Below, piece after piece: positions 20,946 to 52,500 of a stretch of DNA of 64,000 nucleotides (position 1 is its first letter; the number at the start of each line of letters is the position of its first letter). Both the position numbers and the translations under genes were made by a program. The notes beneath the pieces were generated by a model. It was given only the letters and a program-made list of their open reading frames with translations, was not told the DNA's origin and did no database searches. The DNA comes from Corallium rubrum (taxonomy: Eukaryota > Cnidaria > Anthozoa > Scleralcyonacea > Coralliidae), in the NCBI GenBank assembly GCA_964035015.1, contig OZ035998.1, positions 18,729,327 to 18,793,326 of the forward strand, in the 5' to 3' direction.

Positions 20946-22624
20946 TGTAAGCCTTTTTAGTCTCGTTTGCATGTCTGCAATTTTAAAGACTTGTCAAGAA
21001 AATCTTTCTATGACTGCAAAAAGAAATTATAATACCCTGTGTTCTATACTTTCAGAAAAACGAAGCCAATGTTGCTTTGTTATGTCATTCTGACATAAAA
21101 TCCGCCCTGCATGTAACCGTACCTGGGGTAGCCCGCCTCATATAAACGGCCCTTTATAGCTTCATAATTTACGAGGCCGAAAAGACTCATTCGGGTTCAC
21201 ATAAAAGAGTATTTAAAGCCATTGTGTAAGTGATCATATACCGTATTTACTCGTTTAAGCGCCGCGGCGCTCTTTAAGGGGGCGATTACATGGACCGGGC
21301 TGGCCCGGTTAACCGAGCTAGCCCGGTTAACCGGGATGAGTTTACGAAACGATTATATGGAGCGGGCTAGCCCGGTAAGCCGGGATGATTTCAGGCCGAA
21401 ATTCGCAAATATCAAGTAAATAAGGGCAAAGTTACGTTAGTTTTACTTCAGTTTTACACTAATTAGTATATTATTTATTTTGTAAGCCCATCGTTAATAA
21501 AAACCTTGTTAAAGTCTTAGCTAACATAGGAAAGCGTCTTCACGAAGACTAATTACTCGGGCTACTGTGGTGGCCGAGTCTAGGTTTCGGCTCCGTTTGT
21601 TATTTCTTTTTTCTTCGCCACACAAAATTGCAAATTGCGCAATACCTCCGATATATGGAGCCTACACTTCGAGTGTTCGATCACTTCGAAAATTCATCGA
21701 CAGTCATGTTCCTTCGTTCCTATTCTGTCGAACTTTGTATCAAGCACATCACTGATCAACCATATAAGCAATTACTTAGAAAACCTACCAACAATTTCGT
21801 CGAAGGCAAAGCTGGCCAAAGCTGTATGTTGCATCCAAGTGGCAACCGAACAACCGACAACGATATACCGTAGTTAAGTGACTGTGAGGACAAGCGACAA
21901 ATCAAAACAAGCGCAAGCTATTCTTTGCCCAAAACACTTTGTGAGGTACTGTAAATACAACCTATAGTCACCTTGGGATGTAAAATTTATAGGCTATTGT
22001 ATGATGTAGCCCAAATTATACTGATGATACGCAGTTGCCAACGAGCTAACTATTTATATTTTACACGTGCAGTCAACTACACGCAAGCTGCGTGTAGTGC
22101 AAGGTTGCGTGTAGTGCGAAGCTTCGTGTCTGACTGTACTACACGTAGTATGTACTACACGCACTTGTATGCGTGTATGTGCGTGGAACAACCCCACGCA
22201 TGTGCGTTACAAAACTTTTGAGCGCCACTGTATATGCTTTTAGTTTAACATCCCGCATGTGGGACAGAAAAGTCCCCTAGACTTCAGATTGACAATTCAG
22301 GATAATCGGTAATCCTGTTTACCAATGTCTTGTTAATATATTAAATCTTCGCTTTGATCACGAAACACACAAACAACGTTGATGAATGATGTTCTATTTC
22401 AGTTCCTTTCAGCACTATTTATTCACACAGTCGAGCAAACGAACGAACGCGTATCGAACCGAGTTCAACAGTTTTTCAGCCCGGTTTGCTGGGATGAAAA
22501 CGATTACATGGACATTTTCATCCCGGTTAACCGGGATAGCCCGGTTGCGACAACCGGGATCCCGGCAAACCGGGCTAGCCTGCTTGCCATGTAATCCAAA
22601 TGTTAGAACAACATGCGTTTTATA

Positions 22625-24000
22625 TATAAAGCGGGCTAGCCCGGTTACTACCATTTGCGAGCTACCGTTAGGCGCCTGTTTGAAAACGCGTTTGTTTACG
22701 TTTCAAACGTCAACGTTTGGCGGGTCTAGCATGCTAATTATATACATGATAACCAATCACTTTGAAGCGTGAGGTGTACGCGTTCGAAGCATGAAATTGA
22801 CATGTTTGGCAAACGTACGTACACGTTGATGCAAAGAAAGCTCGAGTTGCGCTGCTATACAAACACACAGTGGATGTAGTACGAGGTGCGGGAAAGTACT
22901 GTAATGTGCATGTAATGCATGAATGTGAACAAAAAAGGTAGATCATATCATTTAGGAAAAGCACTCGACGGTGACTTGCGAAGGGTGATACTTGAACACT
23001 GCCTGAAAAATGGCGGTGACCCAGCTCATCTACCACTTGCAATCAACCGTTAGGCGTGATCGTTTTTTCGCGTTTGTTCACGTTTGAAACGTTCACGTTT
23101 GGCGTAACTTGTTCGTTATTTTAAACCTGTAAACCAACTGATTTGAACCGTGAATAGACAAACTTTGACAAGTCCCGCCCACACGTTTGACAAACGTGAG
23201 ACTGAGAGCATGTTTTCGAGTGTATTTTACACGTACATTTACAAACGACGAAGCCGAAATCGTTCGATTTTTATGGGAAAGGATGCAGTTTATCGGCAGC
23301 CGGTCACGGTGAGGATAGAGCAACTGTCGATCTTTGTTTTGGCGTCGAAAAGTTAACTGCCGATTGTGATTTGGGTGAGAAAACGTCGTTCAAGTAAACG
23401 TGTTGGCGAACTTTTGACGAAGTGTCTGGTATTCACATATTTTACAAAACAGGTCAGTTTGAGTCGATCACGAAACGTACTTCAAACCAAAATTTATTAT
23501 AGCAAAGTTACTACAAACAACAAACAAGTGTATTTTGTTTATACATGCTAAGTTCGCTCAAAATAATATTAATACACTGAAATAAAGCAAAATACACTTA
23601 CCTTGGTTGTTGTTTGTAGTAACTTTGCGATATAAATAATATTGGTTTGAAGTACGTTTCGTGACCGACTCATACTGACCTGTTTAAAATATTATAAGGT
23701 GAAGTCTGGACACTCCGTCAAAAATTTGCCAACACGTTTACTTGAACGACGTTTTCTCACCAAAATCACGATCGGCAGTCAACTTTTCGACGCCAAAACA
23801 AAGATCGACAGTTGCTCTATCCTCACCGTGATCGGCTGCCGATAAACTGCATCCTTTCCCATAAAAATCGAACGATTTCGGCTTCGTCGTTTGTAAATGT
23901 ACGCGTAAAATAGCCTAGTTTCTAGGCCTTCCTCGGTTGACACGTTTCGGAAGTGATCCGAACGGACCCGCTGGGGAAGGCCTAGCAACATTCGTAAAAC
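22625..24000. repeat. Left terminal inverted repeat of Y
   Basis: Complement of 35835-36573. It includes GGTTACTACCATTTGCGAGC near the end and paired CAAACGT.. / ..ACGTTTG stretches that can form internal hairpins. Homology is interrupted from about 23226 to 23895 by a separate foldback element and resumes with GCCTAGTTTCTAGGCC, ending near AAGGCCTAGCAACATTCG. Open frames of 102 codons in both TIRs (22734-23042 -, 36145-36453 +) look accidental. Confidence 0.8.
23215..23915. mobile_element. Foldback element inserted in the left TIR of Y
   Basis: Arms of about 310 bp (23215-23530 and 23600-23915) are close reverse complements, sharing ATGGGAAAGGATGCAGTTTA, GAGGATAGAGCAACTG and GTTTGTAGTAACTTTGC; spacer about 70 bp. 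It is missing from the right TIR (near 35960), so it arrived after Y or its left arm was in place. Confidence 0.8.
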
Positions 24001-24090
24001 TCAACCTTAGTCTTCCGCGCGGTTTACGGGCTCGGCTCAAGTATTCAATGCTCTGTTGTATTTCGCACTGGGTTTTGGTTTGTCTAAATA

Positions 24091-26871
24091 ATGTCTTGCC
24101 TCTTGGCTTGTCCCCACGACGATTGTGTGGAAAGAAAAGATATGTATAAGGACTTACAACATCATTTTCGTTCACAACATAAGAACCAAAGTTTAGATTT
24201 GGATGCTGCAAAATGTCATACTTTTGAAGTCCAAGGCAAGCTGATGGAAGAGAAAATTTTAATTGCAAGTGAAAAGATGGTAAGATGTTTTACTGTGTTA
24301 GGTATTTTACAAATATATTATAAAACTGCATACATGCACTCTTCTAGCTATTCAATCTATTCTATTGAATATCTAAGTCGTTTGAAAATATTATATACAT
24401 GTTTTTTAAATCACCTTGTACTTAATAATATCAGCCATAGGCTATGGAATCTTTTAGCACTATAGTAAAAGTATGTGCTTAAATTTCTGCTTGTGTGTTT
24501 GTAAAGTAAATTAACAATATTTTAATTAGTCTTTAATCAACTTGCATGTTGATTGAATGACTACTGTAAACTTCAAGTTGTTATAAATGCCAGTAGACAT
24601 GTATATGTGAGAGATTGAATTACACAGAATGCTAGTTTTTTTTGCATATACATGTCACAACTACCCTATTGTCCATTTCTAATGTTTTGTTTCACCTACA
24701 TGTATAATAATTATACAATATTTAAAGGAATATATTTATTTATATTTATTCCTTCCTTCCCACCTTCCTCTCTACCTCCCTCCCTACCTCCCTCCTCAAA
24801 ATTTTGTATTAGTATCCTAATAAAATACATTTAATTCAATTCAATTCAATTCAATTCAATTCAATTCAATTTAATTCAGGAAACAGGAGAAAACTTTACA
24901 ATAAGGTATGACATGACATTGCTTCAAGTTAAAGATGTTGATCATTACCATGCAGCTATAAAAGCAGCCCATGTTCTACTTGTAAAAGGAAAATTAAGCA
25001 AATATTCAATGTCTCATGAAACTATCACTGTTAGTGGGTCAACTTTAACTCAAGTGTACAAAACATGGAAGTCATCCAATGCAGCAGGATTTGAAATACC
25101 AGAAGTTGAATGCATAAAAACATTTGTTAATGAGAACTGGTTTAATGATGTTAAAAATGCAACTGATTTGCCTCCTACATGTCAAACAAATGCTAATTTA
25201 GTGGATAATTGTAGTTCACTATTAGAACATATTAGCATCACTGACTCTGAATCAATGCTACCTCAAATTCCTGAAACTGTCAACTCTGCTGAAGATTTAT
25301 TGCCAGTTATGTTGGGCATATGGGGATTTACATATTTCAAAGGACAACAAGCAAATGCAATGAATTCAATACTTCATGGCAAAGATTGCTTCATAAACAT
25401 TCCCACAGGTGGAGGAAAATCTCTTCTATACCAGTTACCAGCAGTCTCTCAACCTGGAATTACTATCGTTATTGAGCCCATTATAGCCCTTATTTCTGAC
25501 CAGATTGCACATTGCCAAGAGAGAAATATTCCAGCTGCAGCCTTATATAGTGGATTGCTGGAGACATACAAACAACAAGTACTGCACGATTTAAGCCTGC
25601 CTTTAAACCCTTTTAAGTTACTATATACCACCCCTGAATGTCTTGTAGGTGATTCTGCATTACACTATGTCTTGAATAGTTTGTCTTCAAGAGGTAACAT
25701 ACAACGATTTGTGGTGGATGAGTGTCACTGTGTAAGTTTGTGGGGGAGAGAATTCAGGCCAGCGTACTTGAAATTGGGGTTTTTACGTAAGCAATTCCCT
25801 TCTGTTCCAATAGTTATGTTGACTGCAACCTCTACACATGATGTACAACAAGATGTCTGTTCTGTGCTATCAGTTACTGAACCAATTGTTGTAAAGGATA
25901 ATTACAACAAACCCAATATTATGTACACCATTGAATATAAAGATGGTAAACTAGATGAAAGAATTGCAACTGAAATTAAAGATTGCAACTGCTCTATAGT
26001 GTATGGGTCAACTCGATCTGAATGTGAAGCCATGTGTGCCAAACTTGGTGCACGCAATGTGAATGCAAAAACATATCATGGTGACATGTCCAAACATTTA
26101 AAGAAAGAAATTTTTGAAAGATGGATGTCTGGTGATGTAAAATGTCTCATTTGCACCAAAGCATTTGGTATGGGTGTGGACAAGCCTGATGTAAGAGTTA
26201 TCATACACATATCACTGCCAAGTTGCATGGAAGACTATTACCAAGAGACAGGTCGGGGTGGTCGAGATGGGTGTACTTGTAAATGCATACTTTACTTTAG
26301 TCCAGTTGATGCCAACAGACATATCCATTCTATATTTAGGCAGAACAACCACATGCTAGATGTTTTAAACAAGAGATACAGACATTTCCAAGAGTTTTTT
26401 TATTTTTGTTTCCAAACGGGTTTGTGTAGAAGAAGAGTCCTTTTGGACTATTTTAACAGTGACTCTCAACAATGTGGTGATTTGAAATGTGATCAGTGCC
26501 AAAGAAATTTGGAGACATCAGTTGAAGATATTTCAGAATTGACATGTGACATAATATTATGCTTATTAAGCATGAAGAAATTGAACAGAAGGAAGTTCAC
26601 TTTAAAGCAGCTATCTAATGTAATCACAGGAAAGTGTAACAGAGATGTGAAGAAAAATGGCTATGACAAGGCTGAAAAATTTGGATGCTACAAAGCAAGT
26701 GTTAGTGATGGTGAGTATATTTTGCACATATTGGTTTACAAGGATGTTTTGAGACAGATACCACCAGATACAGATTCAAGAAATCAAAGTGCATTATACA
26801 TAGACCTTGGACCTCAGTTCATATATGTCCAAAACAAGCAATTGTTAATTACATATGATAAGGTACAGTAA
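24091..26871 (+). CDS. RecQ-like ATP-dependent DNA helicase of element Y (two exons)
   Basis: Exons 24091-24279 (ends AAGATG|GTAAG) and 24880-26871 (after AATTCAG) join in phase 0 to about 726 residues. The first exon encodes a C2H2-like zinc motif, CPHDDC..LQHHFRSQHK. The second carries a full superfamily 2 core: motif I PTGGGKS (about 238-244), motif II DECHCVSLWGREFRP (343-), motif III LTATS, motif V AFGMGVDKPDVR and motif VI QETGRGGRDG (518-). The RecQ zinc knuckle C..C..C..C follows (579, 595, 600, 603). DECHCVS.WG and the knuckle place it with RecQ rather than other helicases; motif VI has GRGGRD where cellular RecQs usually have GRAGRD. It would unwind DNA 3'-5' with ATP, in the nucleus. 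The stop follows a possible donor (AAG|GTACAG), so a further exon cannot be excluded. The start codon choice is the first ATG of the zinc-finger exon, 90 bp inside the TIR. Confidence 0.8.
24834..24875. repeat. (TTCAA)n repeat at the helicase splice acceptor
   Basis: Eight pentanucleotide units run up to the TTTAATTCAG acceptor of exon 2. Confidence 0.85.
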
Positions 26872-27703
26872 TTGCTGTAATACAATAATATTCAACTTTC
26901 TGTTTACATTATAATAATTGTTTTATCACCAGAATACTGCTGATAGTAGATGTTTTGCTTAAAGCTGTGCCTATACTTGCAGTATATAAATTATAGCATC
27001 CCCTTCCCTAATGTGTTTCAAGTACATCCAATTTGATATGTACTGTAATTGTACTTAATATATGTAAATTATTCAGTGATCAATGTGTGAGATACTGTAT
27101 GGATGTCCTTGAAAGCTAAGAGAGAGCTACATGTAGTTCACACACTCTCCTGAGGCTTGATGGTCATTTAATCACTAGTATTTTGACATGTTATATTTAA
27201 CAAGGTGTGTGCATGTGTACTGTACCATGATTACTATCAAAGTTCATACATGTATAATATTAATACAGTATTATATATTTTAACAAAAGTAAGTTGAAAC
27301 CACTGATTATATGGTAGTCAGTGGTTGAAACTGATCTAGATAAAAATTTAAGAATGAAATTTCCAGCTGGAAACTGTCAACCCTATTCAGCAACTAAAAG
27401 AAAGGTTATAAGACAGTGTATAGTTTATGACTTTATGTAATTGTTTACTGTCATGGCAATAAAAGCGTTCTTAAAATATTGTTGCAATAAATTCCTCAAG
27501 TTGACCAATTCATTTGATGAAATTATTGCTAACTTCATGTTTTGAATTTGATTGGTTTCTGGTTTTTAAACAAGCAATTAGAAACAGGGTCATACGAAAA
27601 TGTGCCATAAAATATTCTGTGGCATTTTTAATACGAAATTGGGACATTCTATAGAATATTCTACAGAATATTTTAGAAATGCTACAGAATATTCAATAGA
27701 ATT

Positions 27704-28001
27704 CAGGGTTCGAAATAGCAGCCAGCAGTTTTAGGACCTTGCCGGCAATTTCTAATTTCAAAATATAACTAAACTTTGGGTTATCGGCGAAATTGCTTTT
27801 GCCAAGGTCAAAATTATGGTAATTTGTTTTAATTTCTCTGTATATGATCGAAATGAAACCAGTATTTGGTTTACAATACATTATTTGGGCCTATGTCCAG
27901 AACGTAACTTTGCTGCTTGGGAAACAGCCGGCAAAAATTTTGACCTACAAAAAACAGCCGACAAAATTAGGCATATTTTCTGAACGTTATTTCGAACCCT
28001 G
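27704..28001. mobile_element. hAT-like MITE (CAGGGTTCGAAAT ends)
   Basis: Left end CAGGGTTCGAAATAGC, right end TTATTTCGAACCCTG. Flanking 8-mers ATAGAATT and AGAATATT match at five of eight positions, a weak trace of an 8-bp duplication. No transposase. Confidence 0.7.
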
Positions 28002-28207
28002 AGAATATTCTATAGGGTTTAGAAGTACTATAGAATATATTCCATAGAGTCCCAACTTCTATTGCCACAACAGTATGCAGAACAATAATTTTTTTGAGGT
28101 TAATAAGGGGGAAATGACTTATCAATTCAGACAAAATTTGTCACTTGAAAGAACGTTTGCATGCAGTATTTGTTAGTGAGGATATCGTTCTGTTAAAATT
28201 CTTATTA

Positions 28208-28273
28208 CAACCACCACCACCACCACCACCACCACCACCACCACCACCACCACCACCACCACCACCACCACCA
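28208..28273. repeat. (CCA)n microsatellite
   Basis: About 22 perfect CCA units. Confidence 0.95.
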
Positions 28274-28460
28274 AAAACAACAAATAATGGGAAAAATTAT
28301 AGATTAATAAATCTCCTATTCTCCTGGACGTAATAATGCTACTGTATTACTAATAATCATCTATACTGATAAAAATAACCCTTAAATTTTAATGTACTTA
28401 ATTAAGAACTATAAAAAATCTGAAGCTTTGGTTTTCATGATAAAGAGGCTCATGGTAGAG

Positions 28461-31400
28461 CTATTTATCGTTCGCTGAATCTCTGTTAATCATATCCTCA
28501 TGAGGAAATAGCCGGCATAGTATTTCTTTAATGTTTTTGTTAATGAATGACTTTCCTCTTGATTCTACGTCTGTACATTCTGAGGGAACGGCTTTGGTAC
28601 CACTTGTAGATAGATCTTTCTTGTTGTGATCCAGTACTGGAATTACATTCCTATCTTGTGAAACAAACCATTCTTGTTGGACTGCAAACCATGCAATTTT
28701 TAGGCAATCAGGAATTGCATCTGGCACGACACTTTTGACTCTGTTATGAACTTCAAACTCTTCCTTGAAGACTTGCTTGATGTGTGTTAAAAGTTCTATG
28801 TTCATATTCACCTTCTTCATCATAGATAAAGTACTATGATGTTTTGAAAACATCTTCAGTGGCCGCACCATGACAGTCTCAACAAATTCATCCAAGGCCA
28901 AGTTATGCCCCTTCCGTCCTTTGTATGATATAGATGAGTTTCTCCGGTACATTTCACGAATTGCCGTTGGCCACAATGCTGTAAAGTTTGCAATATGAGA
29001 TATAGTCTCATCTTTGTAATTTTTCTTCTTTAATGCACAAAACATAACAAGAGATGACAACCAACAGGCCTCCCTTGTTTTTGCATTTCCGTATCTGACA
29101 GACTCGTGGAATGCCAGCAAAAGTGGACCAAAACTAGTAATGAATTTACTGTGATATGCTACAATCACATCCGTTTTGCTTGCTTCTTGTAAGTATGCTT
29201 TAAAACTTTTCAGTAGAAAGTTATTCACGTTGTCATCAGTTGATTTGGCATTTTTCAATGCTTCGTCATCTGGGAAAAAATCTGATGATTTGAAGGAAGC
29301 AACAGCAGCAATGCAAAGACCCCAAAAATAGTTATTCAACGCATCCATGTTTCTCTCATAATTCCCCTCTTTGAATATGTCAACAAATGATTTTGGCGTC
29401 ACTTTATGACGTCGTAGTATCTGTCTGATTACATAGTAAAAACCCCCAGGCCCAGATATACGGGAAAGGCATTCCATCACGTAGCCTTGTGTATGGAAAT
29501 CTCCTGGGACGTCTTTGAATGACCCAAACTCATCTGGTGCGCGATTGCGGACGCCGCGTAAAGTTGACGTTGACTTTGCATCTCCAATAGTTAGGTTGAA
29601 TGTTAATCGAACATCTCCACGCTCTGACATATGTTCGTCAGGCTCATGATTTAATCTTGTGTCATTAGGCTGGACTGGTAATGATTCTTCTCTTAAGCCA
29701 AGTTCTTTGTGAACTGCTTGCCTTGCATGTATTTCATACATTCTTCTGTCTTCAAGAACTTGTGTGATATATTTGTTACCAATGGCGTATGCCATTTGAA
29801 GAGGATCCGGTATGTTTCCGTGGAAGCTTCCAGTAATTCGTGCTCCATACTTGATTAAAATTTTCACTACTTCAAGATTGTTATGATTTATTGCAATCAT
29901 CACAGGCGTAACTCCACACCCTTCTGGAATATTGACACATGCACCAGCCAAGAGTAGGCTTTCTACTAGACTGGTGCATCCTTCTATGACAGCATGATGT
30001 AATGGAGAACGTCCAAAGTCATCTAAAACATCAATCCACAATCCACTTTTGGTCTTTAAAAACAATACTCGATCTTTCATGTTTGTTAATCTGTTTGTCC
30101 CTTCTTTTAACTTCGTCATTACTTCCTTTGTGTGGTTTGCTAACTGTTTCATTTGTGTCTTAAATGATGTTGGGCAATCAGCACCATGATCTAATTCGAC
30201 ATCATTGTGAAGGTCATCACTGTCTTCCATTTCCATAATTTCTCGGAATCGTTCCATATTTTGGGTATGGCATTCCATTTCTTTGTAGAATTTGTGACGT
30301 TCACGGGCAGCCCGGATGTCAAATTTCTTAACATGTCTATTATAGGTAAGGTAATCTTGTGATTTACCCAGTGATATATTGATATCACTGGCAAATTCAC
30401 GCATCACAGATGCAGTACCAGCTGTTAGAGATTCGTCTTCAATAGAAAGAGGTAGAATTATGACACTGGCTTTGTTGTTTGATTCTGGGTATTCTTGTCT
30501 TAAATCTGGAACATGAACATCTAAAACATTCTTCTTATTACTCTTGTATTTGTCATCTGTGATAAAGGTATTAAAATCTTTTTCGGACATCTTTTTAAGG
30601 TCATTGAAGCTCACATTCAGGACATTCACAACCAGATTTAAGGCTTCGATTAAATAATCATCAAATCTTTGCTGGAGTAATGCCTGAAGGTCTGGGTAGG
30701 AATCTAGCAAGTAATAAGAAATTTGACTTAGAATATCTTAGTGCTAAGTGTGGATTATACAAAAAAAAGTTTTTGCATAGGTTTTAGTTGAAATACTTTT
30801 TTTGCACAGGATAATTGCTCATCCTCTCTTAAAAAATAATAAAATGCTTTGTACCTATTAAATGACTAACAGTTTTTTAATAAGCTGTACATTTGTAAAG
30901 CAAGTTTTTCGCTGAGTTAATTTTCTATATGCTGCGAATACTAAATAGCGATTATGATTATTGACGTTAAAACAGATGTTTTATTACTGTAGTATAAACA
31001 GAAAAATAAAAATAAATATAAACAAGCAAGTGAGTGAGTGAAAACTATCATATGCTTTTCTTTTGCACGAGAGTTAATTCAACCAGTGTTGCACTGAGGT
31101 AACCGATATTTTAGTGCTGATATTTGTCCAAATTGTAATCTATCTTTAGAAAATGTACATTTCATAACTAAAGAAAATAACTTCCAAAGTCAATCAAAAC
31201 AAATTTTCAGGAAAAGTCCAAGAATGATAACTGTTACAAGAGTAAAGTCCATAAAAACTTTGAAAAAAATAGGTGTCAACTACACGACGAAACTATCCTT
31301 TATTGAATTCATTTTTATTAGTTTTTATAAATTTGATATTTTCTTCCGCAAACTAGGCTTTGCCATCGGCGATTGACTTTCTAAATATCAGCACGGACAT

Positions 31401-34400
31401 CAGTAAGAAAATACTGGTATAATGATACACCAATATTTGTGCAATTCTATTAATCCAAGTAAATTGTGATTACACACCTAGGTAAAAATCATCTGCCTTT
31501 AAATATTTTAGTGGTCTTTGAGGCGTAACGTCGATCTCTTTTGTTGAAAGACCAGTGATGCCAGATACGTCGGGTTTCAAAACAGCTCTCACTGTGAAAT
31601 TCCACATTACTGGTTTGGTTTTACGCTGAAATCGCTCATATCTTGGTCTACCACGGTGAATGTTTATGTTATCGAAAAGAAACATAACAGGACAACCATC
31701 AGGACAGCGTAGACGGACTTTCTCTTTATAATGCTGTAACGATTTTCCAAGAAACCCACGACTAAAACAAGTTGAAATTAAAGTAATTTAGAATAGACTG
31801 ATATGTTCTTATTGTTAATTGCAAGAAGTGAGATATGAAATCATATCTTGTAAAACGCCAAAACCATTCTTCAATTAGCCAAGTGGGGAAGCACGGGTGA
31901 TGTGTGCTATCGTGCTGCCTCTCACCACTGTAGGCCAAAAAGTTAAGCCCGGTTAGAGGGCCAGAGGGGGTTGGTACTTCAATGGGTGACCGTCTGGGAA
32001 AGACCCCGTTGTCGAGCTTGAAACTCATGTGAGTAGAGTTGTAGTTGATCTCCCCTGCGCTTCGACGGATTATCTAGTTTTTTTTCCTCTGTAAAATCAA
32101 CACCATTTAGCTGTGATCCGTGGTCTAAATGGTGTCGTAGGGATACTAGGGGGGCTGCTTGGGGCGCATTTCTTTCATCAGTTCTTCGACACGGCCACGT
32201 TGATCGGCGTCCTTCGTAATTCAGCCACTGACTGAAGTAAGAATGTTTTGCCCACGGTCCCCTAGACTTGGATCAAGTCTGTCTCTCGAGGGGACGAGGT
32301 CTGTCTCTCCCCATTCTCCTCGCGCGCCGCTTGGCGGCGCGCTCGACCCTCGTCCCCTCGTGAGACAGACTTGATCCAAGTCTAACGGCCGCCCAGTCCC
32401 TTCCTTTCCTGGATATATGTGCCACGTGGTAGATTTAATTTGTTGATTATTTTCAGGTCAAGGTGATTTTATCCCATGGGTGAATTGGCATACATTTTCA
32501 CAAAAAATGGCAAATAATATTTAAAATATTGACATACTACAAAAGTTAATTTTACTATAAACCAACTAGTCAGGCAAAATATTATCTTAATTAAAGAAAC
32601 AAACTATCTTTGGCAAAACGCAAGAAATGTACCATGATCGTTTTTTTTTTAAAGTTGAAAATTGATTTCTTTACTACTTTAGAGGGCCACGCCCCACAGA
32701 GTTATCAGTCATATTACTGTCCAGTGCTCAGGCCTTCCCAGGGGGGGGGGGGGGACTGGGACAGTTTGTCTGAAGATCAAATTAGATTATTTCTAGATTT
32801 TTTTTTTGGTCTTACTGTAAAACGTTTCTATATATTAACTTGCATGTAGAGTTTCTACATGGCCCTAATATTTGTATTTTGCCCTAGGCCCAGCTGGTGT
32901 TACCCCTTTAAGATAGAGCCTCAACTAAAAACTGAACTAAACTTAGTGGTCTATCATCAATAGATGCACAGTAAGTACCTCATCCAATCTGGATGCAGGA
33001 TTTGTAATAGCCCCACCAGGGATGTAGCCAGGATTTTGAAAGGGGAGCCAAAATCAAAATAATTTTTTAGGGGGGTCTGGGGGCACGCTCCCCCGGGAAA
33101 TTTTGAAATCAAGAGTCACGAGAGTCACAGACTCTAAAGGTTAAAAAACATCATATAAAATACTCGAAACACACAAACGTCACATAGATACTCAAAATGC
33201 ATACACTCAATAGATTGAATTAATACACTGTTTACAGTTCATTTTCTGACACAATTCATATTGCATCAGTTTTATAATTACATGTCTGTTGTTTTATATC
33301 AAAAGGGGGAGCCGCAGGTCCCCTGGCTCCCCCTGGCTACATCCCTGGGCCTGACTAGTTGGTTTACATAAATCTACAAGTTCAGAATTTGGGGAACTCT
33401 TTCTTTTTTTAGAGGGGGAAGAGGTTATCAGAAATATATGATATTCTCAAAAAGGTGTATATATATGTAGTTTTTCATTCTATTTTATGCAATTGACCTG
33501 GCAAGAAAAACAACACTTACTAAAATTGATAAGATTTACAGAGGCCAAATGGTTCAAGTACAGTAAACATAGCTTTGCCAGCTCCATTAGCAAATAGCAG
33601 TAGACCAAATAATATAGAAAATGAACTCTTAGTTCTTTCACTTTTGACATCATCCAGGCTAAGGATAGCTTGTAAAGCAGCCTTAAACTTAAAGTTCGAA
33701 TCCTTCTTTCCAGTATTTCTTTCTGTTGACTTTCCAATGGCAAGAGTGCTAATTATACTTGTCAACAATGGGCATTTGTTCTTGACATTTAAAGCAATTT
33801 CATCAAAGAAATTAGGCATAATAACCATACTATGATCAGCTGATTGAACAAAATTGTCTTCAAAGTCAATGCAATACATTTCACGTAGAAAAGTCATTTC
33901 TTTATCCAATATTTGGCACTGTTGGTCAGACAGTGATTCACTAATATTATGACTTTCTGTTAGTGTTGCTATTTCTTGTTTTGATTTTGCTAGTTCCTTT
34001 GTAAGCAACTGGTTTTGTTTCATTAGTTGTTCAATAAGTTGTTTGTCAGAATTTCCATCTGAAGGTGCATTGCAAGTTGTATTCTTTAACATGATGTTTT
34101 TGTAAAAGGATCTACATATAGTGTTAAAGACATTTTTTTAAAATTATACTGTAAATTTTCAAAAATAACCACCACTAGTCTCTCCTCTAATCCAGCCCCC
34201 ACCCCCTCTTTCCAAAAAGAAACTCCAAAACACTGCCTAGATATTAGCTACATTATATACACAAATGTTAAAAAAAAACTTCAACAAAAATAAGCTCATG
34301 ACTTACTGGAAGTTTATGGTGTGCTTATGGCCAAAAAGACTTCTTGGTAAGATTTTTGTGTCAATGATATGGGGGCTTTGATATTAGAGGTTTACAGTAT

Positions 34401-35700
34401 AAAGAGGTATAAAATATCCATACAAAAAGTACTTGTTTAAAACAAAAGAAACCATTTGTAATAAAGTAGTATTTTCTTGCAGTGTATACAGTTCTCCAAT
34501 GGCTATTTTAGTATAATATAATTTATGTATATAAAACTACTGTAAGTAATAACTAGTAAGTTTGAAACAAGTGATATATAAAAGGAAAGGAATTAGAAAT
34601 TAAAACTGTCTCTAGATGCATTATGCATACAGTAACAACAAAAAAGAATACGTTTTTTTCCTTAAATCAAGTCCATGTGTTTGTGAACCAAGTCTTTTTT
34701 GGAGGGTTGAAACATCGCCAAAGACGTCTTGGAGAGATTCCAATAACATTGGCCTTGTTACATGTATATTATTAAGTGGACAGCTACTTTCAACTGCTCT
34801 CAGTGCTTCATTTACAGGCATTTCGACACCGACTTTATAGCAGAATAATTCTGGTAGTATTTGAGTTAGGTAATCTGAAAGAGACAGGACAGCTATTCGT
34901 AAGAAGGCCTTCTACTTCTCACGAGAATACAAAAGTACAAGACGAACAACACAACGGGCATATACACAAGGCATTGTAAATTTACTTGCAACTTGTACAC
35001 CGGTACCTTACCTTGAACATCTTCTCGTTTAGATTTCTTGTAGTCTTGTTTACTGCTTGGACTGGGCGTAAAGTTCATATCACTATGTGAACTTTTTCTT
35101 GGTGTTCCTCAGTGTTTTCATCAAGCAAATAAAAGATATAAAGCATAAATTGAATAATGGCGATGCTAAACAGATTTTTTATTAATAATAATAATTCAAT
35201 GCAAAATACTGAAATTAAATCTTGCGTCGAACCAGCTCGAACCTAGTATGTTTTAAGTTTGGAAAAAGCATATCGCTTTGTCATATTTAAACTCTGCTTA
35301 ACAATCGAAATAATTTCTTCTGTTATAACAAATTAGATTGATACCTTGCAATGTTTCTGATACTGCCGCACATGTCGACATCATTGTGGATTCGTCTTGC
35401 GTTTTAAAAATGTTTATGGAGAAATATTAACACGTATTTTACGTAATATCTGACAAAATATTTACTGAAATCTGCTATGAGTTATACTAATAAAATTATG
35501 TATTAAATACTACGTTTTGCGCCAAAGATCATATGTATTCTGACGGATAACTATTAAACGTGAATCATACTTCGTTCTAATTTATAACAATTAGAAATAC
35601 ACAACGTTTTTGATACATTGTAAAGTAACACACGTGCTGCCCACGCAAATACACTAATTTACAAGCTGTACTTACCTAAACTGCCTGTACTCATCGCCAT
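28461..35700 (-). CDS. Transposase-like protein of element Y with internal ankyrin repeats (seven exons)
   Basis: Exons on the minus strand: 35676-35700, 35345-35395, 35012-35107, 34631-34874, 33521-34111, 31478-31761, 28461-30703. All six junctions use GT/AG and keep frame (phases 1,1,1,2,2,1), giving about 1,177 residues. A coiled-coil-like segment (QLIEQLMKQNQLLTKELAK) is in exon 5, a FDNINIHRGRPR motif with an acidic pair at about 366 in exon 6, and in exon 7 two to three ankyrin repeats (about 658-753: GRSPLHHAV, GVTPVMIAI, NLEVVKILIKYGA) followed by LTIGDAKST and VPGDFHT (about 831). The D-N-I and G-D-x-H motifs resemble DUF6589-type proteins encoded by eukaryotic DNA transposons; this is from memory of motif patterns. 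Role inferred: catalysis of Y excision/integration in the nucleus, ankyrins perhaps for partner binding. The 4th exon's donor could instead be at 34652 in the same phase. Convergent with the helicase. Introns carry a 5S-type SINE, a hairpin and MITEs. Confidence 0.7.
31886..32170 (+). mobile_element. SINE with 5S-rRNA-type promoter (copy 2)
   Basis: Diverged copy of 13207-13500: shared GGGGAAGCACGGGTG-like head, GTTAAGCCCGGTTAG, GGTTGGTACTTCAATGGG and GACCGTCTGGGAAAGACC, then TTCATGTGAGTAGAGTT-type body. It lies inside the large intron of the Y transposase gene, in the opposite orientation to it. Confidence 0.7.
32263..32384. repeat. GC-rich foldback hairpin in the transposase intron
   Basis: TAGACTTGGATCAAGTCTGT and CTCGAGGGGACGAGG pair with the complement at 32340-32384; the tip is GCGCGCCGCTTGGCGGCGCG. 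The unit TTGGATCAAG is itself palindromic. Confidence 0.8.
32558..33366. mobile_element. Possible MITE with 18-bp inverted ends
   Basis: TAAACCAACTAGTCAGGC at 32558-32575 and its exact complement at 33349-33366. Contains G/C homopolymer at 32740-32753 and, next to its right end, the hAT-like MITE 33017-33347. No target duplication seen. Confidence 0.45.
33017..33347. mobile_element. hAT-like MITE (CAGGGATGTAGCCAGG ends)
   Basis: Exact 16-bp inverted ends CAGGGATGTAGCCAGG / CCTGGCTACATCCCTG. Flanking 8-mers AGCCCCAC and GGCCTGAC agree at five positions. Subterminal GGGGGAGCC / GGCTCCCCC also pairs. About 331 bp, no transposase. Confidence 0.8.
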
Positions 35701-35834
35701 TGTTGCTATAAATATCATTAATATTTATACACATATGTGTCCACTCCTACATACTTTCGGTTTCATCACTTTTATGTTTAATGTTTTTGCCTCATTAGAA
35801 CCCAGGAACACTCGAAGGGCCTAAACGATTCTGG

Positions 35835-36573
35835 GCGGGACCTTTTTGCGAATGTTGCTAGGCCTTCTCGTTTCCAGCCTCTCCCCAGTCTTCCCAAGAA
35901 CCCAAACCGACTACGCGGCCAAGCACATTGCGGAAACGAAAGGCCTAGAAACTAGGCTACGCGTAAAATACACTCGAAAACATGCTCTCACGTTTGTCAA
36001 ACGTGTGGGCGGGACTTGTCAAAGTTTGTCTATTCACGGTTCAAATCAGTTGGTTTACAAGTTTAAAATAACGAACAAGTTACGCCAAACGTGAACGTTT
36101 CAAACGTAAACAAACGCGAAAAAACGATCACGCCTAACGGTTGATTGCAAGTGGTAGATGAGCTGGGTCACCGCCATTTTTCAGGCAGTGTTCAAGTATC
36201 ACCCTTCGCAAGTCAACGTCGAGTGCTTTTCCTAAATGATATGATCTACCTTTTTCGTTCACATTCATGCATTACATGCACATTACAGTACTTTCCCGCA
36301 CCTCGTACTACATCCACTGTGTGTTTGTATAGCAGCACAACTCGAGCTTTCTTTGCATCAACGTGTACGTACGTTTGCCAAACATGTCAATTTCATGCTT
36401 CGAACGCGCACACCTCACGCTTCAAAGTGATTGGTTATCATGTATATAATTAGCATGCTAGACCCGCCAAACGTTGACGTTTGAAACGTAAACAAACGCG
36501 TTTTCAAACAGGCGCCTAACGGTAGCTCGCAAATGGTAGTAACCAGGCCAGACCGGGCCATGTAATCGCCCCC
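35835..36573. repeat. Right terminal inverted repeat of Y
   Basis: Complement of the left TIR, uninterrupted. It ends CCGGGCCATGTAATCGCCCCC at 36573 and begins close to AAGGCCTAGCAACATTCG's complement near 35865. The first exon of the transposase starts about 130 bp further in, so the transposase promoter is expected in or next to this TIR. Confidence 0.8.
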
Positions 36574-42225: not shown

Positions 42226-43662
42226 TTATCCTTGGAAGGATTGCTTCAATATCTGCCAAGCCATTTCAGAGTACCTTTGAGCAGTTGTTGTTGATACTTT
42301 GCTAGCATCGTAACAGGTGATCCAGTTTAACTTGCCGTTGAAAGTGATAATGTAGTTTGTACATGTTGCAACTCTTTTATGAGGTGTAGAAGCAAACCAT
42401 GCATTACCAATACAATAAACGTCGCCATCTTTTTTTTCATGCACGTACGCACCAACGTTTGAAACACAATTCCCGGATGAACGCCGTTGATGTAATTCGA
42501 GGTCTCCTTGCTGAAGAATAGAGTTGTACAAAGCATTGCCAGCTGCTTCCAAAACACAAACGGAAGTCAAGTGTTTTCCTCGTTCCAGAGCCGCTGTTGT
42601 TGTTTCTTTGAACTGCCTTGCAATTTGCCAGAAATTGCTGCTTTCTCTTGTCAATGGAATGTCGTGAGTTACGGACGCGACGTAATTGCCAATGTACTCT
42701 GAGGGGAGTTGAGGACAATGATATGGGCGCGCACTTATTGCGATTGACATGTCATTTGTGGCGTTGTTAGGATAGGGTTTGTCATCCAGGAGACGGCAAA
42801 ATGCAATATGACATGCAGCCGCGATTGCGCTAGACACACTAGAGCCTTCACTTTTGCACCGCTTTACCAATTTTGATGTCTCGTCGACTGAAATGATACG
42901 ACTAAACATTTTAGTAACGGATTTAATATCTCGCGCTTTCTCTCGGTCGATTGTTGGAAATCCTGCGAGAACAGGGTTAGTGGATTTCGTAAAAGACTGC
43001 GCATAAAATGCAATACGAAGAAGTGCCGAATACATTTGGGGAAACAGGAGCAGTTGCTGCCATCTTGACCAGCCAACTCTATGAGCAAGAAGCGTGGCGT
43101 TACTTGGTAATAAAGGAAAACTTAAAATGTCTTTCAGACTTGGCGCTGTACCGTTTGCAATTGCGTTCATATTTGCAACAACTTCTTGTAACAACATAGA
43201 TATACTCCGTCCATCGGTCACGGCATGCGCGGCAATAAATCCAATAACATTTCTATATAACCTTTTGGAATCGTCATACTCTTCTCGGAGGAGAAACGCT
43301 TTCCAAACGGGCGCTTCGACATTGAACTCTATCGACTCTAACAACTCCTGAGCGACTTCTACGCAATCATCCCCACATCGGTCAATAAACTTTAAGTCGA
43401 TTTTAACAGGCCCTTCGACGAACTCGAAATGTTTCTGGTTGCCATCAGATGAATCAACGATGGTTGTTCTAAGCATCGGCTGCCGTCGAGCTACCATAAC
43501 TAAGGATTGGTGAAGGGCTTCTTTCTGCAGTGGAATCTCTGACAGCAGGGTAGCCCATAAAGTCACATTAGAAATACGGCCGTACTTCTCCAGTTTATGA
43601 GCCATAGACTCGGCTCCGTCAAGAGATCGACGCATGTAAACTTCCATCAACGTCGCGACCAA
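42226..43662 (-). CDS. HxxxDG acyltransferase (alcohol acetyltransferase / condensation-domain superfamily)
   Basis: An uninterrupted single-exon frame of 478 residues. The catalytic HxxxDG motif is visible as AAHAVTDGRS (His146, Asp150, Gly151), followed by a helix SISMLLQEV, as in the BAHD/condensation/PapA/alcohol-acetyltransferase superfamily, whose members transfer an acyl group from a thioester (CoA or carrier protein) to an alcohol or amine. Length fits a two-lobed enzyme of 430-490 residues; a C-lobe NxGAY segment (NCVSNVGAYV, about 400) replaces the DFGWG seen in plant BAHD enzymes. No signal peptide or membrane segment, so cytosolic. Start at 43662 is the first ATG of a frame preceded by stops; a second ATG is five codons on. 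A TATA-like ATATATACG lies about 80-90 bp upstream on the minus strand. Substrate cannot be inferred. It is the only intact host-like gene in the window. Confidence 0.8.
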   Translation of the reverse strand: MVATLMEVYMRRSLDGAESMAHKLEKYGRISNVTLWATLLSEIPLQKEALHQSLVMVARRQPMLRTTIVDSSDGNQKHFEFVEGPVKIDLKFIDRCGDDCVEVAQELLESIEFNVEAPVWKAFLLREEYDDSKRLYRNVIGFIAAHAVTDGRSISMLLQEVVANMNAIANGTAPSLKDILSFPLLPSNATLLAHRVGWSRWQQLLLFPQMYSALLRIAFYAQSFTKSTNPVLAGFPTIDREKARDIKSVTKMFSRIISVDETSKLVKRCKSEGSSVSSAIAAACHIAFCRLLDDKPYPNNATNDMSIAISARPYHCPQLPSEYIGNYVASVTHDIPLTRESSNFWQIARQFKETTTAALERGKHLTSVCVLEAAGNALYNSILQQGDLELHQRRSSGNCVSNVGAYVHEKKDGDVYCIGNAWFASTPHKRVATCTNYIITFNGKLNWITCYDASKVSTTTAQRYSEMAWQILKQSFQG

Positions 43663-46189: not shown

Positions 46190-46560
46190 CACCTTTCCTC
46201 ACTATTTATCACTACGCTGCCCTAACAATAACTCCTCATCACTCACCATCACTTGCCATCATTCGCCATCACTAGCTATCATCCCCATCACTGGCTATCA
46301 CTAGCTATCACTCACCATCACTAGCTATCACTCCCCAACACTAGCTATCACTAGCTATCACTCCCCATCACTAGCTATCACTCCCCATCACTGGCTATCA
46401 CTAGCTATCACTCACCATAACTAGCTATCACTCCCCATCACTAGCTAAGCTATCACTACCTATCACTCCCCATCACTAGCTATCACTCCCCATCACTAGC
46501 TATCGCTAGCTATCACTCCCCATCACTAGCTATCACTAGCTATCACTCCCCATCATATAA
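46190..46560. repeat. 20-bp minisatellite, left block of Z
   Basis: About 18 units of CTATCACTCCCCATCACTAG and half-units; it is the reverse complement of the right block at 57115-58810. Confidence 0.9.
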
Positions 46561-49500
46561 CTCTTCAGCAAAAAAAATATGGACACTACAAAATATTCAT
46601 CTTCAATTTCGCCGCCACACTTACCCATCTATTCGCAATAACCCCAAAGCAAAAAGAACTGAGCCACTCCATAAAACTGCTGTTCAATCTAGACGCAATT
46701 ATGTGCATGTGCGCTACAAATTTCTGGATCAAAATACCCCACAGGAAAGACCATCTATTCGAAATAACTCCTCAGGAGAAAAAATTTGGACCCTACAAAA
46801 TTCTCGTGTTCACTTTCGCCGCAACCCTAACCTAATTATTCGCAATAACCAAAAGGAAAAAGAACTGAGCAACTCACTAAACCTGCTGTTCCATCTAGAC
46901 GCAATCATGCGGATGTGCGCCACAAATTTCTGGTTCAAAATAACCCACAAGCATGACCATCTATTCGAAATAACTCCTCATTAAAAAAAAATTTGGACAC
47001 TACAAAATATTCATGTTCAATTTTGCCGCCACACTTACCCATCTATTCGCAATAACCCCAAAGCAAAAAGAACTGAGCCACTCCCTAAAACTGCTGTTCA
47101 ATCTAGACGCAATTATGTGGATGTGAGATACAAATTTCTGGATCAAAATAACCCACAGGCAAGACCCTCTATTCGAAATAACTCCTCAGCAAAAAAAAAT
47201 TTGGACACTACCAAATATTCATGTTCAATTTCGTCGTCACACTTGCCCATCTATTCGCAATAACCCCAAAGCAAAAAGAACTGAGCCACTCCCTAAAACG
47301 GCTGTTGAATCTAGACGCAATTGTGAGGATGTGCGCTACGAATTTCTGGATCAGAATGTCCCACAGGCAAGATCATCTATTCGAAATAACTCCTCAGCAA
47401 AAAAAAAAATGGACACTGCCAAATATTCATGTTCAATTTCGTCGTCACACTTACCCATCTATTCGCAATAACCCCAAAGCAAAAAGAACTGAGCCACTCC
47501 CTAATACGGCTGTTGAATCTAGACGCAATTGTGTGGATGTGCGCTACGAATTTCTGGATCAAAATACCCCACAGGCAAAGTTTATCTATTCGATATAACT
47601 GATCATTAAAAAAATTTGGACACTACCAAATATTCATGTTTAATTTCGCCGTCACACTTACCCATCTATTCGCAATAACCCCAAAGCAAAAAGAAATGAG
47701 CCACTCCCTAAAACGGCTGTTGAATCTAGACGCAATTGAGTGGATGTGCGAATACCCCACAGGCAAGATCATCTATCCGAAATAACCCTTCAGCAAAAAA
47801 AAATTGGACACTACAAAATATTCATGTTCAATTTCGCCGCCACACTTACTCATCTATTCGCAATAACCCCAAAACAAAAGGAACTGAGCCACTCCCTAAA
47901 ACTGCTGTTCAATCTAGACGCAATTATGTGGATGTGCGCTACAAATTTCTGGATCAAAATACCCCACAAGCAAGACCATCTATTCGAAATAACTCCTCAG
48001 GAGGAAAAAATTTGGACCCTACAAAATTCTCGTGTTCACTTTCGCCGCAACCCTAATCCAATTATTCGCAATAACCCCAAAGAAAAAAGAACTAAGAGAC
48101 TCCCTAAACCTGCTGTTCCATCTAGACGCAATTACGCGGATGTGCGCCGCAAATTTCTGGTTCAAAATGACCCACAAGCAAGACCATAAATTCGAAATAT
48201 CTCCTCATTAAAAAAAATTTGGACACTACAAAATATTCATGTTCAATTACGCCGTCACACTTTCCCATCTATTCGCAATAACCCCAAAGCAAAAAGAACT
48301 GAGCCACTCCCTAAAACGACTGTTGAATCTAGACGCAATTGAGTGGATGTGCGCTACGAATTTCTGGATCAAAATACCCCACAGGCAAGATCATCTATTC
48401 GAAATAACTCTTCAGCAAAAAAATTTGGACACTACAAAATATTCATGTTCAATTACGCCGCCACACTTACCCACCTATTCGCAATAACCCCAAAGCAAAA
48501 AGAACTGAGCCACTCCCTAAAACTGCTCTTCAATCTTGACGCAATTATGTGGACGTGCGCTACAAATTGCTGGTTCAAAATAACCCACAAGCAAAGTTCA
48601 TCTATTCGAAGTAACTGATCATTAAAAAAAATTGGACACTACCAAATATTCATGTTTAATTTCGCCGTCACACTTACCCATCTATTCGCAATAACCCCAA
48701 AGCAAAAAGAACTGAACCACTCCCTAAAACGGCTGTTGAATCTAGACGCAACTGTGTGGATGTGCGCTACGAATATCTGGATAAAATACCACACAGGCAA
48801 GATTATTTATTCGAAATAAATCCTCATTAAAAAAAATTTCGGAACTACAAAATATTCATGTTCAATTACGCCGCCACACTTACCCATCTATTCGCAATAA
48901 CCCCAAAGCAAAAAGAACTGAGCCACTCCCTAAAACGGCTGTTGAATCTAGACGCAATTGTGTGGATGTGCGCTACGAATTTCTGGATCAGAATACCCCA
49001 CAGGCAAGATCATCTATTCCAAATAACTCCTCAGTAAAAAAAAATTTGGACACTACCAAAAATTCATGTTCAATTTCGCCGCCACACTTACCCATCTATT
49101 CGCATTAACCCCAAAGCAAAAAGAACTGAACCACTCCCTAAAACTGCTGTTCAATCTAGACGCAATTGTGTGGATGTGCGCTACAAATTTCTGGATCAAA
49201 ATACCGCACAAGCCAAACCATCTATCACAAAGAACTCCTCATTAAAAAAAATTTGGACACCACAGAATATTCATGTTCAATTACGCCGCGAGACTTACTC
49301 ATCTATTCGCAATAACCCAAAGCAAAAAGAACTGAACCACTCCCTAAAGCTGCTGTTTAATCTAGACGCAATTATGTGGATGTGAGATACAAATTTCTGG
49401 ATCAAAATAACCCACAGGCAAGACCCTCTATTCGAAATAACTCCTCAGCAAAAAAAGATTTGGACACTACCAAATATTCATGTTCAATTTCGTCGTCACA

Positions 49501-52500
49501 CTTACCCATCTATTCGCAATAACCCCAAAGCAAAAAGAACTGAGCCACTCCCTAAAACGGCTGTTGAATCTAGACGCAATTGTGTGGATGTGCGCTACGA
49601 ATTTCTGGATCAGAATATCCCACAGGCAAGATCATCTATTCGAAATAACTCCTCAGCAAAAAAAAAATGGACACTGCCAAATATTCATGTTCAATTTCGT
49701 CGTCACACTTACCCATCTATTCGCAATAACCCCAAAGCTAAATGAAACTGAACCACTCCCTAAAACTGCTGTTCAATCTAGACACAATTATGTGGATGTG
49801 TGCTACAAATTGCTTGTTCAAAATAACCCACAAGCAAAGTTCATCTATTCGATATAACTGATCATTAAAAAAATTTGGACACTACCAAATATTCATGTTT
49901 AATTTCGCCGTCACACTTACCCATCTATTCGCAATAACCCCAAAGCAAAAAGAAATGAGCCACTCCCTAAAACGGCTGTTGAATCTAGACGCAATTGAGT
50001 GGATGTGCGCTACGAATTTCTGGATCAAAATACCCCACAGGCAAGATCATCTATTCGAAATAACCCTTCAGCAAAAAAAAATTGGACACTACAAAATATT
50101 CATGTTCAATTTCGCCGCCACACTTACCCATCTATTCGCAATAACCCCAAAGCAAAAGGAACTGAGCCACTCCCTAAAACTGCTGTTCAATCTAGACGCA
50201 ATTATGTGGATGTGCGCTACAAATTTCTGGATCAAAATACCCCACAAGCAAGACCATCTATTCGAAATAACTCCTCAGGAGAAAAAAATTTGGACCCTAC
50301 AAAATTCTCGTGTTCACTTTCGCCGCAACCCTAACCCAATTATTCGCAATAACCCCAAAGAAAAAAGAACTAAGAGACTCCCTAAACCTGCTGTTCCATC
50401 TAGACGCAATTACGCGGATGTGCGCCGCAAATTTCTGGTTCAAAATAACCCACAAGCAAGACCATAAATTCGAAATATCTCCTCATTAAAAAAAATTTGG
50501 ACACTACAAAATATTCATGTTCAATTACGCCGCCACACTTACCCATCTATTCGCAATAACCCCAAAGCAAAAAGAACTGAGCCACTCCCTAAAACTGCAG
50601 TTAAATCTAGACGCAATTATGTGGATGTGCGCTACAAATTTCTGGATCAAAATAACCACAGGCAAGACCCTCTATTCGAAATAACTCCTCAGCAAAAAAA
50701 AATTTGGACACTACCAAATATTCATGTTCAATTTCGCAGTCACACTTACCAACCTATTCGCAATAACCCCAAAGTAAAAAGAACTGAGCCACTCCCTAAA
50801 ACTGCTCTTCAATCTTGACGCAATTATGTGGACGTGCGCTACAAATTGCTGGTTCAAAATAACCCACAAGCAAAGTTCATCTATTCGAAGTAACTGATGA
50901 TTAAAAAAATTTGGACACTACCAAATATTCATGTTTAATTTCGCCGTCACACTTACCCATCTATTCGCAATAACCCCAAAGCAAAAAGAACTGAGCCACT
51001 CCCTAAAACGACTGTTGAATCTAGACGCAATTGAGTGGATGTGCGCTACGAATTTCTGGATCAAAATACCCCACAGGCAAGATCATCTATTCGAAATAAC
51101 TCTTCAGCAAAAAAATTTGGACCCTACAAAATATTCATGTTCAATTACGCCGCCACACTTACCCACCTATTCGCAATAACCCCAAAGCAAAAAGAACTGA
51201 GCCACTCCCTAAAACTGCTCTTCAATCTTGACGCAATTATGTGGACGTGCGCTACAAATTGTTGGTTCAAAATAACCCACAAGCAAAGTTCATCTATTCG
51301 AAGTAACTGATCATTAAAAAAAATTGGACACTACCAAATATTCATGTTTAATTTCGCCGTCACACTTGCCCATCTATTCGCAATAACCCCAAAGCAAAAA
51401 GAACTGAATGACTCCCTAAAACGGCTGTTGAATCTAGACGCAATTGAGTGGATGTGCGCTACGAATTTCTGGATAAAATACCACACAAGCAAGATTATTT
51501 ATTCGAAATAACTCTTCAGCAAAACAATTTGGACACTACAAAATATTCATGTTCAATTACGCCGCCACACTTACCCATCTATTCGCAATAACCCCAAAAC
51601 AAAAAGAACTGAACCACTCCCTAAAACGGCTGTTGAATCTAGACGCAACTGTGTGGATGTGCGCTACGAATATCTGGATAAAATACCACACAGGCAAGAT
51701 TATTTATTCGAAATAAATCCTCATTAAAAAAAATTTCGGAACTACAAAATATTCATGTTCAATTACGCCGCCACACTTACCCATCTATTCGCAATAACCC
51801 CAAAGCAAAAAGAACTGAGCCACTCCCTAAAACGGCTGTTGAATCTAGACGCAATTGTGTGGATGTGCGCTACGAATTTCTGGATCAGAATACCCCACAG
51901 GCAAGATCATCTATTCCAAATAACTCCTCAGTAAAAAAAAATTTGGACACTACCAAAAATTCATGTTCAATTTCGCCGCCACACTTACCCATCTATTCGC
52001 ATTAACCCCACAGCAAAAAGAACTGAACCACTCCCGAAAACTGCTGTTCAATCTTGACGCAATTGTGTGGATGTGCGCTACAAATTTCTGGATCAAAATA
52101 CCGCACAAGCCAAACCATCTATCACAAAGAACTCCTCATTAAAAAAAATTTGGACACTACAGAATATTCATGTTCAATTACGCCGCGAGACTTACTCATC
52201 TATTCGCAATAACCCCAAAGCAAAAAGAACTGAACCACTTCCTAAAACGGCTGTTGAATCTAGACGCAATTGTGTGGATGTGCTCTACGAATGTCTGGAT
52301 CAGAATACCCCACAGGCAAGATCATCTATTCGAAATAACTCCTCAGCAAAAAAAATTTGGACACTACCAAATATTCATGTTCAATTTCGCCGTCACACTT
52401 ACCCATCTATTCGCAATAACCCCAAAGCAAAAAGAACTGAGCCACTCCCTAAAACGACTGTTGAATCTAGACGCAATTGAGTGGATGTGCGCTACGAATT

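Follow-up and report, generated by a model that had tools for sequence, protein, structure and literature searches.

A 12-kb DNA transposon of Corallium rubrum that encodes a RecQ helicase and a DUF6589/ankyrin protein and is very probably of the AcademH type

A window of 64,000 nucleotides (the whole stretch of DNA that was analysed; C8:18729327-18793326, contig OZ035998.1) of the 474-Mb genome of Corallium rubrum contains two convergent genes, predicted to be spliced, one encoding a RecQ helicase on the plus strand and the other a large protein with ankyrin repeats and a DUF6589 domain on the minus strand. The two genes form one DNA transposon of 12,049 bp (23911..35959; positions are those of the window unless another contig is named). 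Judged by described features and not by sequence, it is very probably a complete and recently active cut-and-paste element of the AcademH type. An earlier note on this DNA had recognised the gene pair and had placed it in a 14-kb element at 22612..36573, bounded by near-identical terminal inverted repeats (TIRs) of about 0.7 kb. The genes were confirmed by their open frames and domains, and the limits of the element had to be redrawn.

The splice models were inferred from reading frames and GT/AG sites alone. The predicted helicase (726 amino acids) is encoded by two exons, the first of which (24091..24279, plus strand) carries an N-terminal finger-like motif, C-x4-C-x12-H-x4-H, whose spacing recurs in a relative from contig C15 (39-amino-acid match, E 7.6e-5). 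The second exon (24880..26871, plus strand), situated in a frame (24835-26871) that matches DEAD, Helicase_C, RQC and RecQ_Zn_bind, supplies these four domains. The closest solved structure is the Bloom helicase (E 1.5e-82), and the TGGGKS, DECH and QETGRGGRDG motifs can be read in the translation. The large protein is predicted from seven minus-strand exons (35676..35700, 35345..35395, 35012..35107, 34652..34874, 33521..34111, 31478..31761 and 28461..30703) and counts 1,170 amino acids, where the earlier note had given 1,177 for the same protein. Exon 6 contains a DNIN motif (D359), while exon 7, taken from a frame (28461-30737) that matches ankyrin families and DUF6589, contains the ankyrin repeats, a GDFH motif (D825) and the C-terminal part of DUF6589. 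The profile check for DUF6589 that had been suggested for this protein gave a match to Pfam PF20231 in its C-terminal part (residues 931-1078, E 3.7e-15), downstream of the ankyrin module (residues 646-714). No third gene was seen, since the 12 other frames of at least 60 amino acids outside the exons gave no Pfam match above cut-off: 11 had no match up to E 0.1 and the last one matched RSN1_7TM at E 0.039, far under its cut-off. An Rfam search of the window returned 0 matches at the gathering threshold.

The ends of the transposon were determined by comparison with a second copy, found on contig C37 by protein search. The DNA of the C37 copy is colinear with the window over 23910-35963 only, and the flanks differ. 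Both copies have the same ends, formed by a 20-bp terminal inverted repeat, TAGCCTAGTTTCTAGGCCTT, at 23911..23930 (plus strand) and, identical to it, at 35940..35959 (minus strand), in which an internal palindrome, GCCTAG-TTT-CTAGGC, can be read. Each copy is flanked by a 9-bp target-site duplication (TSD) of its own, CGCGTAAAA in the window (23902..23910 and 35960..35968, plus strand) and GGCGCCATA on C37. The gene starts, according to the splice-model coordinates, are located 180 bp and 259 bp inside these ends, and not about 100 bp inside the long repeats as had been proposed. Between the two copies there are 14 substitutions in 12,022 aligned bases and 34 gap columns. The reading frames of the two genes are intact in the window as well as on C37, each gene showing 2 nucleotide differences. 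This supports a recent copying of the transposon, as the earlier note had supposed, but not its argument from the identity of the long arms, which belong to an older element described below. A broken copy, with parts about 15 kb apart, is present on contig C20.

The long inverted repeats flanking the two genes exist, at 22632-23201 and 35986-36555, as arms of 570 nucleotides that are 98% complementary, and nothing of them is found around the C37 copy. Two more inverted pairs are located within 23223-23912, on the left side only, a first hint that the left-hand "TIR" belongs to a longer structure. When the transposon and one TSD were removed, the left arm (22632-23500) aligned through the junction with the right side (95.3% over 875 nucleotides). 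The arms are thus those of an older palindromic element (22648..36539), which starts with CTACC at 22648, ends with GGTAG at 36539 and has TA on both flanks, a duplication that rests on a single insertion. The transposon interrupts its right arm, and 1,263 + 571 bp of the palindrome are left outside the transposon and one TSD; before the insertion the palindrome was thus about 1.83 kb long, with arms near 0.85 kb. The palindrome itself interrupts a miniature inverted-repeat transposable element (MITE) of a type marked by GGGGGCGATTACATGG, a part of which is present on its left (22333..22647, minus strand) and a terminal part on its right (36540..36573, minus strand). The joined flanks matched continuously across the junction in the MITE copies L002, L005, L006, L007 and L008 (five of eight loci, L005 and L006 being one place), matched as two pieces at L003/L004 (one place) and stopped at the junction at L001. 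Because MITE copies run on across the palindrome junction and the palindrome arm across the transposon junction, the locus consists of three nested insertions: the GGGGGCGATTACATGG MITE, then the palindrome with TA, then the 12-kb transposon with 9 bp. The transposon landed in one arm of the older palindrome, leaving misleading long inverted repeats on its two sides.

The earlier note had taken GGGGGCGATTACATGG for the end of the helicase element. Near the arms this 16-mer was found on the right side only (36558-36573, minus strand); over 21501-22660 the sole match within 4 substitutions was GAAAACGATTACATGG at 22496, outside the arm. Genome-wide it has 335 + 366 exact matches, against 0 for the reversed pattern, and in the MITE copies of L001-L008 the flanking sequence terminates in TTA, TAA or TGA. 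GGGGGCGATTACATGG marks a separate MITE family and not the helicase element, and was rejected as its end; the search for further copies carrying both genes led to C37, whose ends differ from GGGGGCGATTACATGG. Among the matches listed, GGGGGCGATTACATGG also forms arrays at C1:59646794-59652051 and on C1 from 74275682 on, with copies on one strand that mostly lie about 307 bp, or a multiple of this distance, apart. A satellite thus seems to have incorporated the terminal sequence of the MITE.

The 20-bp end of the transposon is common in the genome, with 233 + 236 exact matches (469; reversed pattern 0 + 0); when up to 2 mismatches are allowed the counts rise to 515 + 515, against 1 + 0 for the reversed pattern. 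Among 100 end places listed, 22 formed 11 inward-facing pairs less than 1.1 kb apart and 2 were the window's own ends, as counted by eye. These short pairs measure 105-1,004 bp, their terminal stretches are 81-100% identical to the ends of the transposon, and all 11 are flanked by a 9-bp TSD (8 exact, 3 with one mismatch). Together with the two long copies, a 9-bp TSD was present at 13/13 insertions, the two repeats being identical at 10 of them and differing by one mismatch at 3. With up to one mismatch, duplications of 6, 7, 8, 10, 11 or 12 bp were found at 0/13 loci, and cross-locus pairings at 9 bp gave 0/156. The transposon appears to drive MITEs, because the short pairs have the same ends and the same 9-bp TSD; its two proteins would move these short copies in trans.

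Searches of the genome with the two proteins scored the best candidates only, and the counts are lower bounds. The DUF6589/ankyrin frame gave at least 67 matches at at least 48 loci and the helicase at least 70 matches at at least 61 loci. A related helicase was located within 15 kb at 37 of the 48 transposase loci, and the two genes were convergent in 37/37 cases, down to about 28% identity. Ten of the 23 leftover helicase loci had a DUF6589 profile match within 15 kb, convergent at 9 of them. Taken together, the C37 copy, which shares the ends of the transposon and has a separate TSD, and the convergence of all 37 neighbouring pairs indicate that the helicase and the large protein belong to one mobile element, as the earlier note had supposed. 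The DUF6589 profile gave at least 107 matches in the genome and none in 14 control genomes. Among the loci compared, most of the listed DUF6589 matches had no helicase match within 15 kb. A search of viral contigs for proteins related to the DUF6589 protein gave pattern matches in 3 stretches, none of which was confirmed.

To the large protein of the window we aligned 12 relatives (13 rows, some from unspliced pieces, with 6-13 rows covering a column). The rows were drawn from 20 loci, leaving out L009-L012 (the window, C37 and C20 copies) and L021, L025, L026 and L028 (short or broken); the C15 relative was taken from L035/L036. Invariant positions were D359 in DNxN (6/6 covering rows), D825 in GDxH, E968, E989 and E1032 (13/13 each), and also D651, D798 and D1028 (13/13), so that no D-D-E triad was singled out. 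All 12 relatives matched an ankyrin family in Pfam (Ank_2 over its cut-off) and DUF6589, the latter over the cut-off in 9 and just under it in 3. In the three recent pairs of transposases for which it could be calculated, the ratio of nonsynonymous to synonymous substitution rates (dN/dS) was 0.26-0.41, based on a small number of changes; the remaining 11 pairs with more than 50% identity were saturated. This is weak evidence for selection on the transposase.

The 1,170-amino-acid protein would be a DDE-type transposase, which binds the ends, cuts them and joins them to the target DNA with a 9-bp stagger. The helicase would participate in transposition, as its conserved neighbourhood suggests, and would separate the strands of the ends or of the joined intermediate to allow release or repair. 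As a tentative proposal, to which we give somewhat less than an even chance, DUF6589 would be the catalytic core of helicase-partnered (AcademH) transposases; the ankyrin module, which lies after the first of the presumed catalytic acids and before the second, would perhaps dock the helicase or a host factor, and the palindromic, hairpin-forming 20-bp ends would be the substrate of RecQ.

That the element would extend over 22612-36573, with the arms of 0.57-0.7 kb as its TIRs, is a reading for which the 570-nucleotide complementary arms on both sides of the genes were the reason. We give it practically no chance and rejected it: the C37 copy is without either arm and ends exactly at 23911/35959, the palindrome arm becomes continuous again when 23911-35959 is taken out together with one TSD, and the 20-bp ends with a 9-bp TSD are common to all 11 short pairs (3 with one mismatch). 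The repeats at 22.6 and 36.5 kb are unrelated to the ends of the element, which is the finding that the earlier note had named as counting against its termini. A MULE (MuDR) or a Kolobok element encoding RecQ is very improbable as well. MULE TSDs are often near 9 bp, which would suit the former, while no MULE, DDE or Kolobok family appeared among the Pfam matches of the proteins up to E 1. The TSD of Kolobok is TTAA, whereas the 13 duplications observed here are all of 9 bp and none contains TTAA. In favour of Kolobok, passages of PMC9587614 describe a RecQ helicase in KolobokH, which is found in fungi only and has it downstream of the transposase domain, and another in Kolobok-1_CCri of a red alga, on the complementary strand. 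The orientation of the two genes alone therefore does not exclude a Kolobok element, and it is the 9-bp duplications and the absence of a Kolobok family among the Pfam matches that speak against it.

Several observations weigh against the assignment to AcademH or against parts of it. The assignment rests on the helicase and the length of the TSD, the relationship of the large protein to the Academ reference transposases being presumed. The catalytic residues of the large protein are guesses from conservation, and the splice models are predictions. No helicase match was present within 15 kb at 11/48 transposase loci, and no DUF6589 match within 15 kb at 13/23 leftover helicase loci, while the pair at one more of these 23 was divergent, at 12 kb. 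The other 76 of the 100 listed end places had no listed partner within 1.1 kb, so that most end matches are not shown to be MITEs. The AcademX nuclease is of the XPG type. There are 43 XPG_I matches in the genome, none of them closer than 25 kb to any of the 48 transposase loci or of the DUF6589 matches (at least 107), and AcademX is thus unusable for tying DUF6589 to Academ. At the one XPG_I locus of the 43 that was examined for an AcademX transposase (L050), neither protein of the element matched below E 0.2. This locus contains a 3.1-kb stretch (L050 2672-5785, contig C56) with perfect 37-bp inverted ends around an XPG_I match, and several XPG_I matches look repeated.

Another reading is a separate, unnamed superfamily, in which a DUF6589 transposase with a RecQ partner would resemble AcademH only in the helicase and the 9-bp TSD. 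It would be favoured by the comparison with AcademH having been made by description and not with an Academ reference sequence, by the 0/43 XPG_I matches within 25 kb of a DUF6589 match, and by the finding of no mention of DUF6589 in the literature searched on Academ and DUF6589. We consider it unlikely: helicase content and TSD length are both features reported for AcademH in passages of PMC10045372, and the title of the reference of Kojima (2020, Mob DNA 11:15, doi 10.1186/s13100-020-00211-1) places AcademH in animals and fungi. The AcademH reading remains the preferred one. The transposon has a 9-bp TSD and encodes a helicase, and no XPG match was found in its extra frames or near the 48 loci, as expected for AcademH, which is without the AcademX nuclease. 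The Academ elements that the earlier note had named as a hint were in this respect a good lead, and the new family that it considered possible is not needed, since a lineage with a helicase and a 9 or 10-bp TSD is in print, as far as passages of PMC10045372 describe it.

Other features were observed in the window to the right of the transposon. Tandem repeats of 207 bp, mostly with 87-90% matches, extend over about 10.5 kb (46557-57101), and on either side of them there are arrays of short period, in opposite orientation (46231-46555 and 57118-58806); the whole stretch 46231-58806 has a strong guanine-cytosine skew and resembles an element of the foldback type with tandem repeats as its inverted ends. 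Remains of a non-long-terminal-repeat retrotransposon are present at 59187-61466 (minus strand), where the sequence matches a reverse transcriptase (PF00078, E 1.8e-12) and, weakly and below the cut-off of the family, an endonuclease (PF14529, E 0.0011). An open frame of 478 amino acids at 42226-43662 (minus strand) matches AATase (PF07247, E 3.6e-17) and, weakly, a condensation domain.

The helicase transposon of this locus is complete, presumably autonomous and known in two copies that are almost identical; its ends are exact, its TSD is constant at 9 bp, and it has short MITE-like derivatives. It thus offers a defined donor with which one could test what a RecQ helicase does in cut-and-paste transposition. 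It also ties DUF6589, a common domain, to transposition, and illustrates a trap of nested insertions, in which long inverted repeats flanking transposon genes may not be the TIRs of the transposon. Among known systems, the curated Pfam family PF20231 (DUF6589) is of unknown function and differs from the protein described here, which has an ankyrin module upstream. KolobokH and Kolobok-1_CCri resemble the present element as DDD/E transposons with a RecQ helicase (passages of PMC9587614). In passages of PMC10045372, AcademH and AcademX are sister lineages of the Academ superfamily whose TSDs, of 9 or 10 bp in AcademH and 3 or 4 bp in AcademX, are related to the encoded helicase or nuclease; the present element differs from AcademX in having a helicase and a 9-bp TSD, with no XPG_I match within 25 kb. 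It resembles AcademH as a helicase-encoding DNA transposon with a TSD of 9 or 10 bp, and differs from the fungal members, described as low-copy in passages of PMC10799480, by its dozens of related loci in this genome. The helicase-encoding Academ lineage is already in print, and what is less documented is that DUF6589 would serve as its transposase and that an ankyrin module accompanies it.

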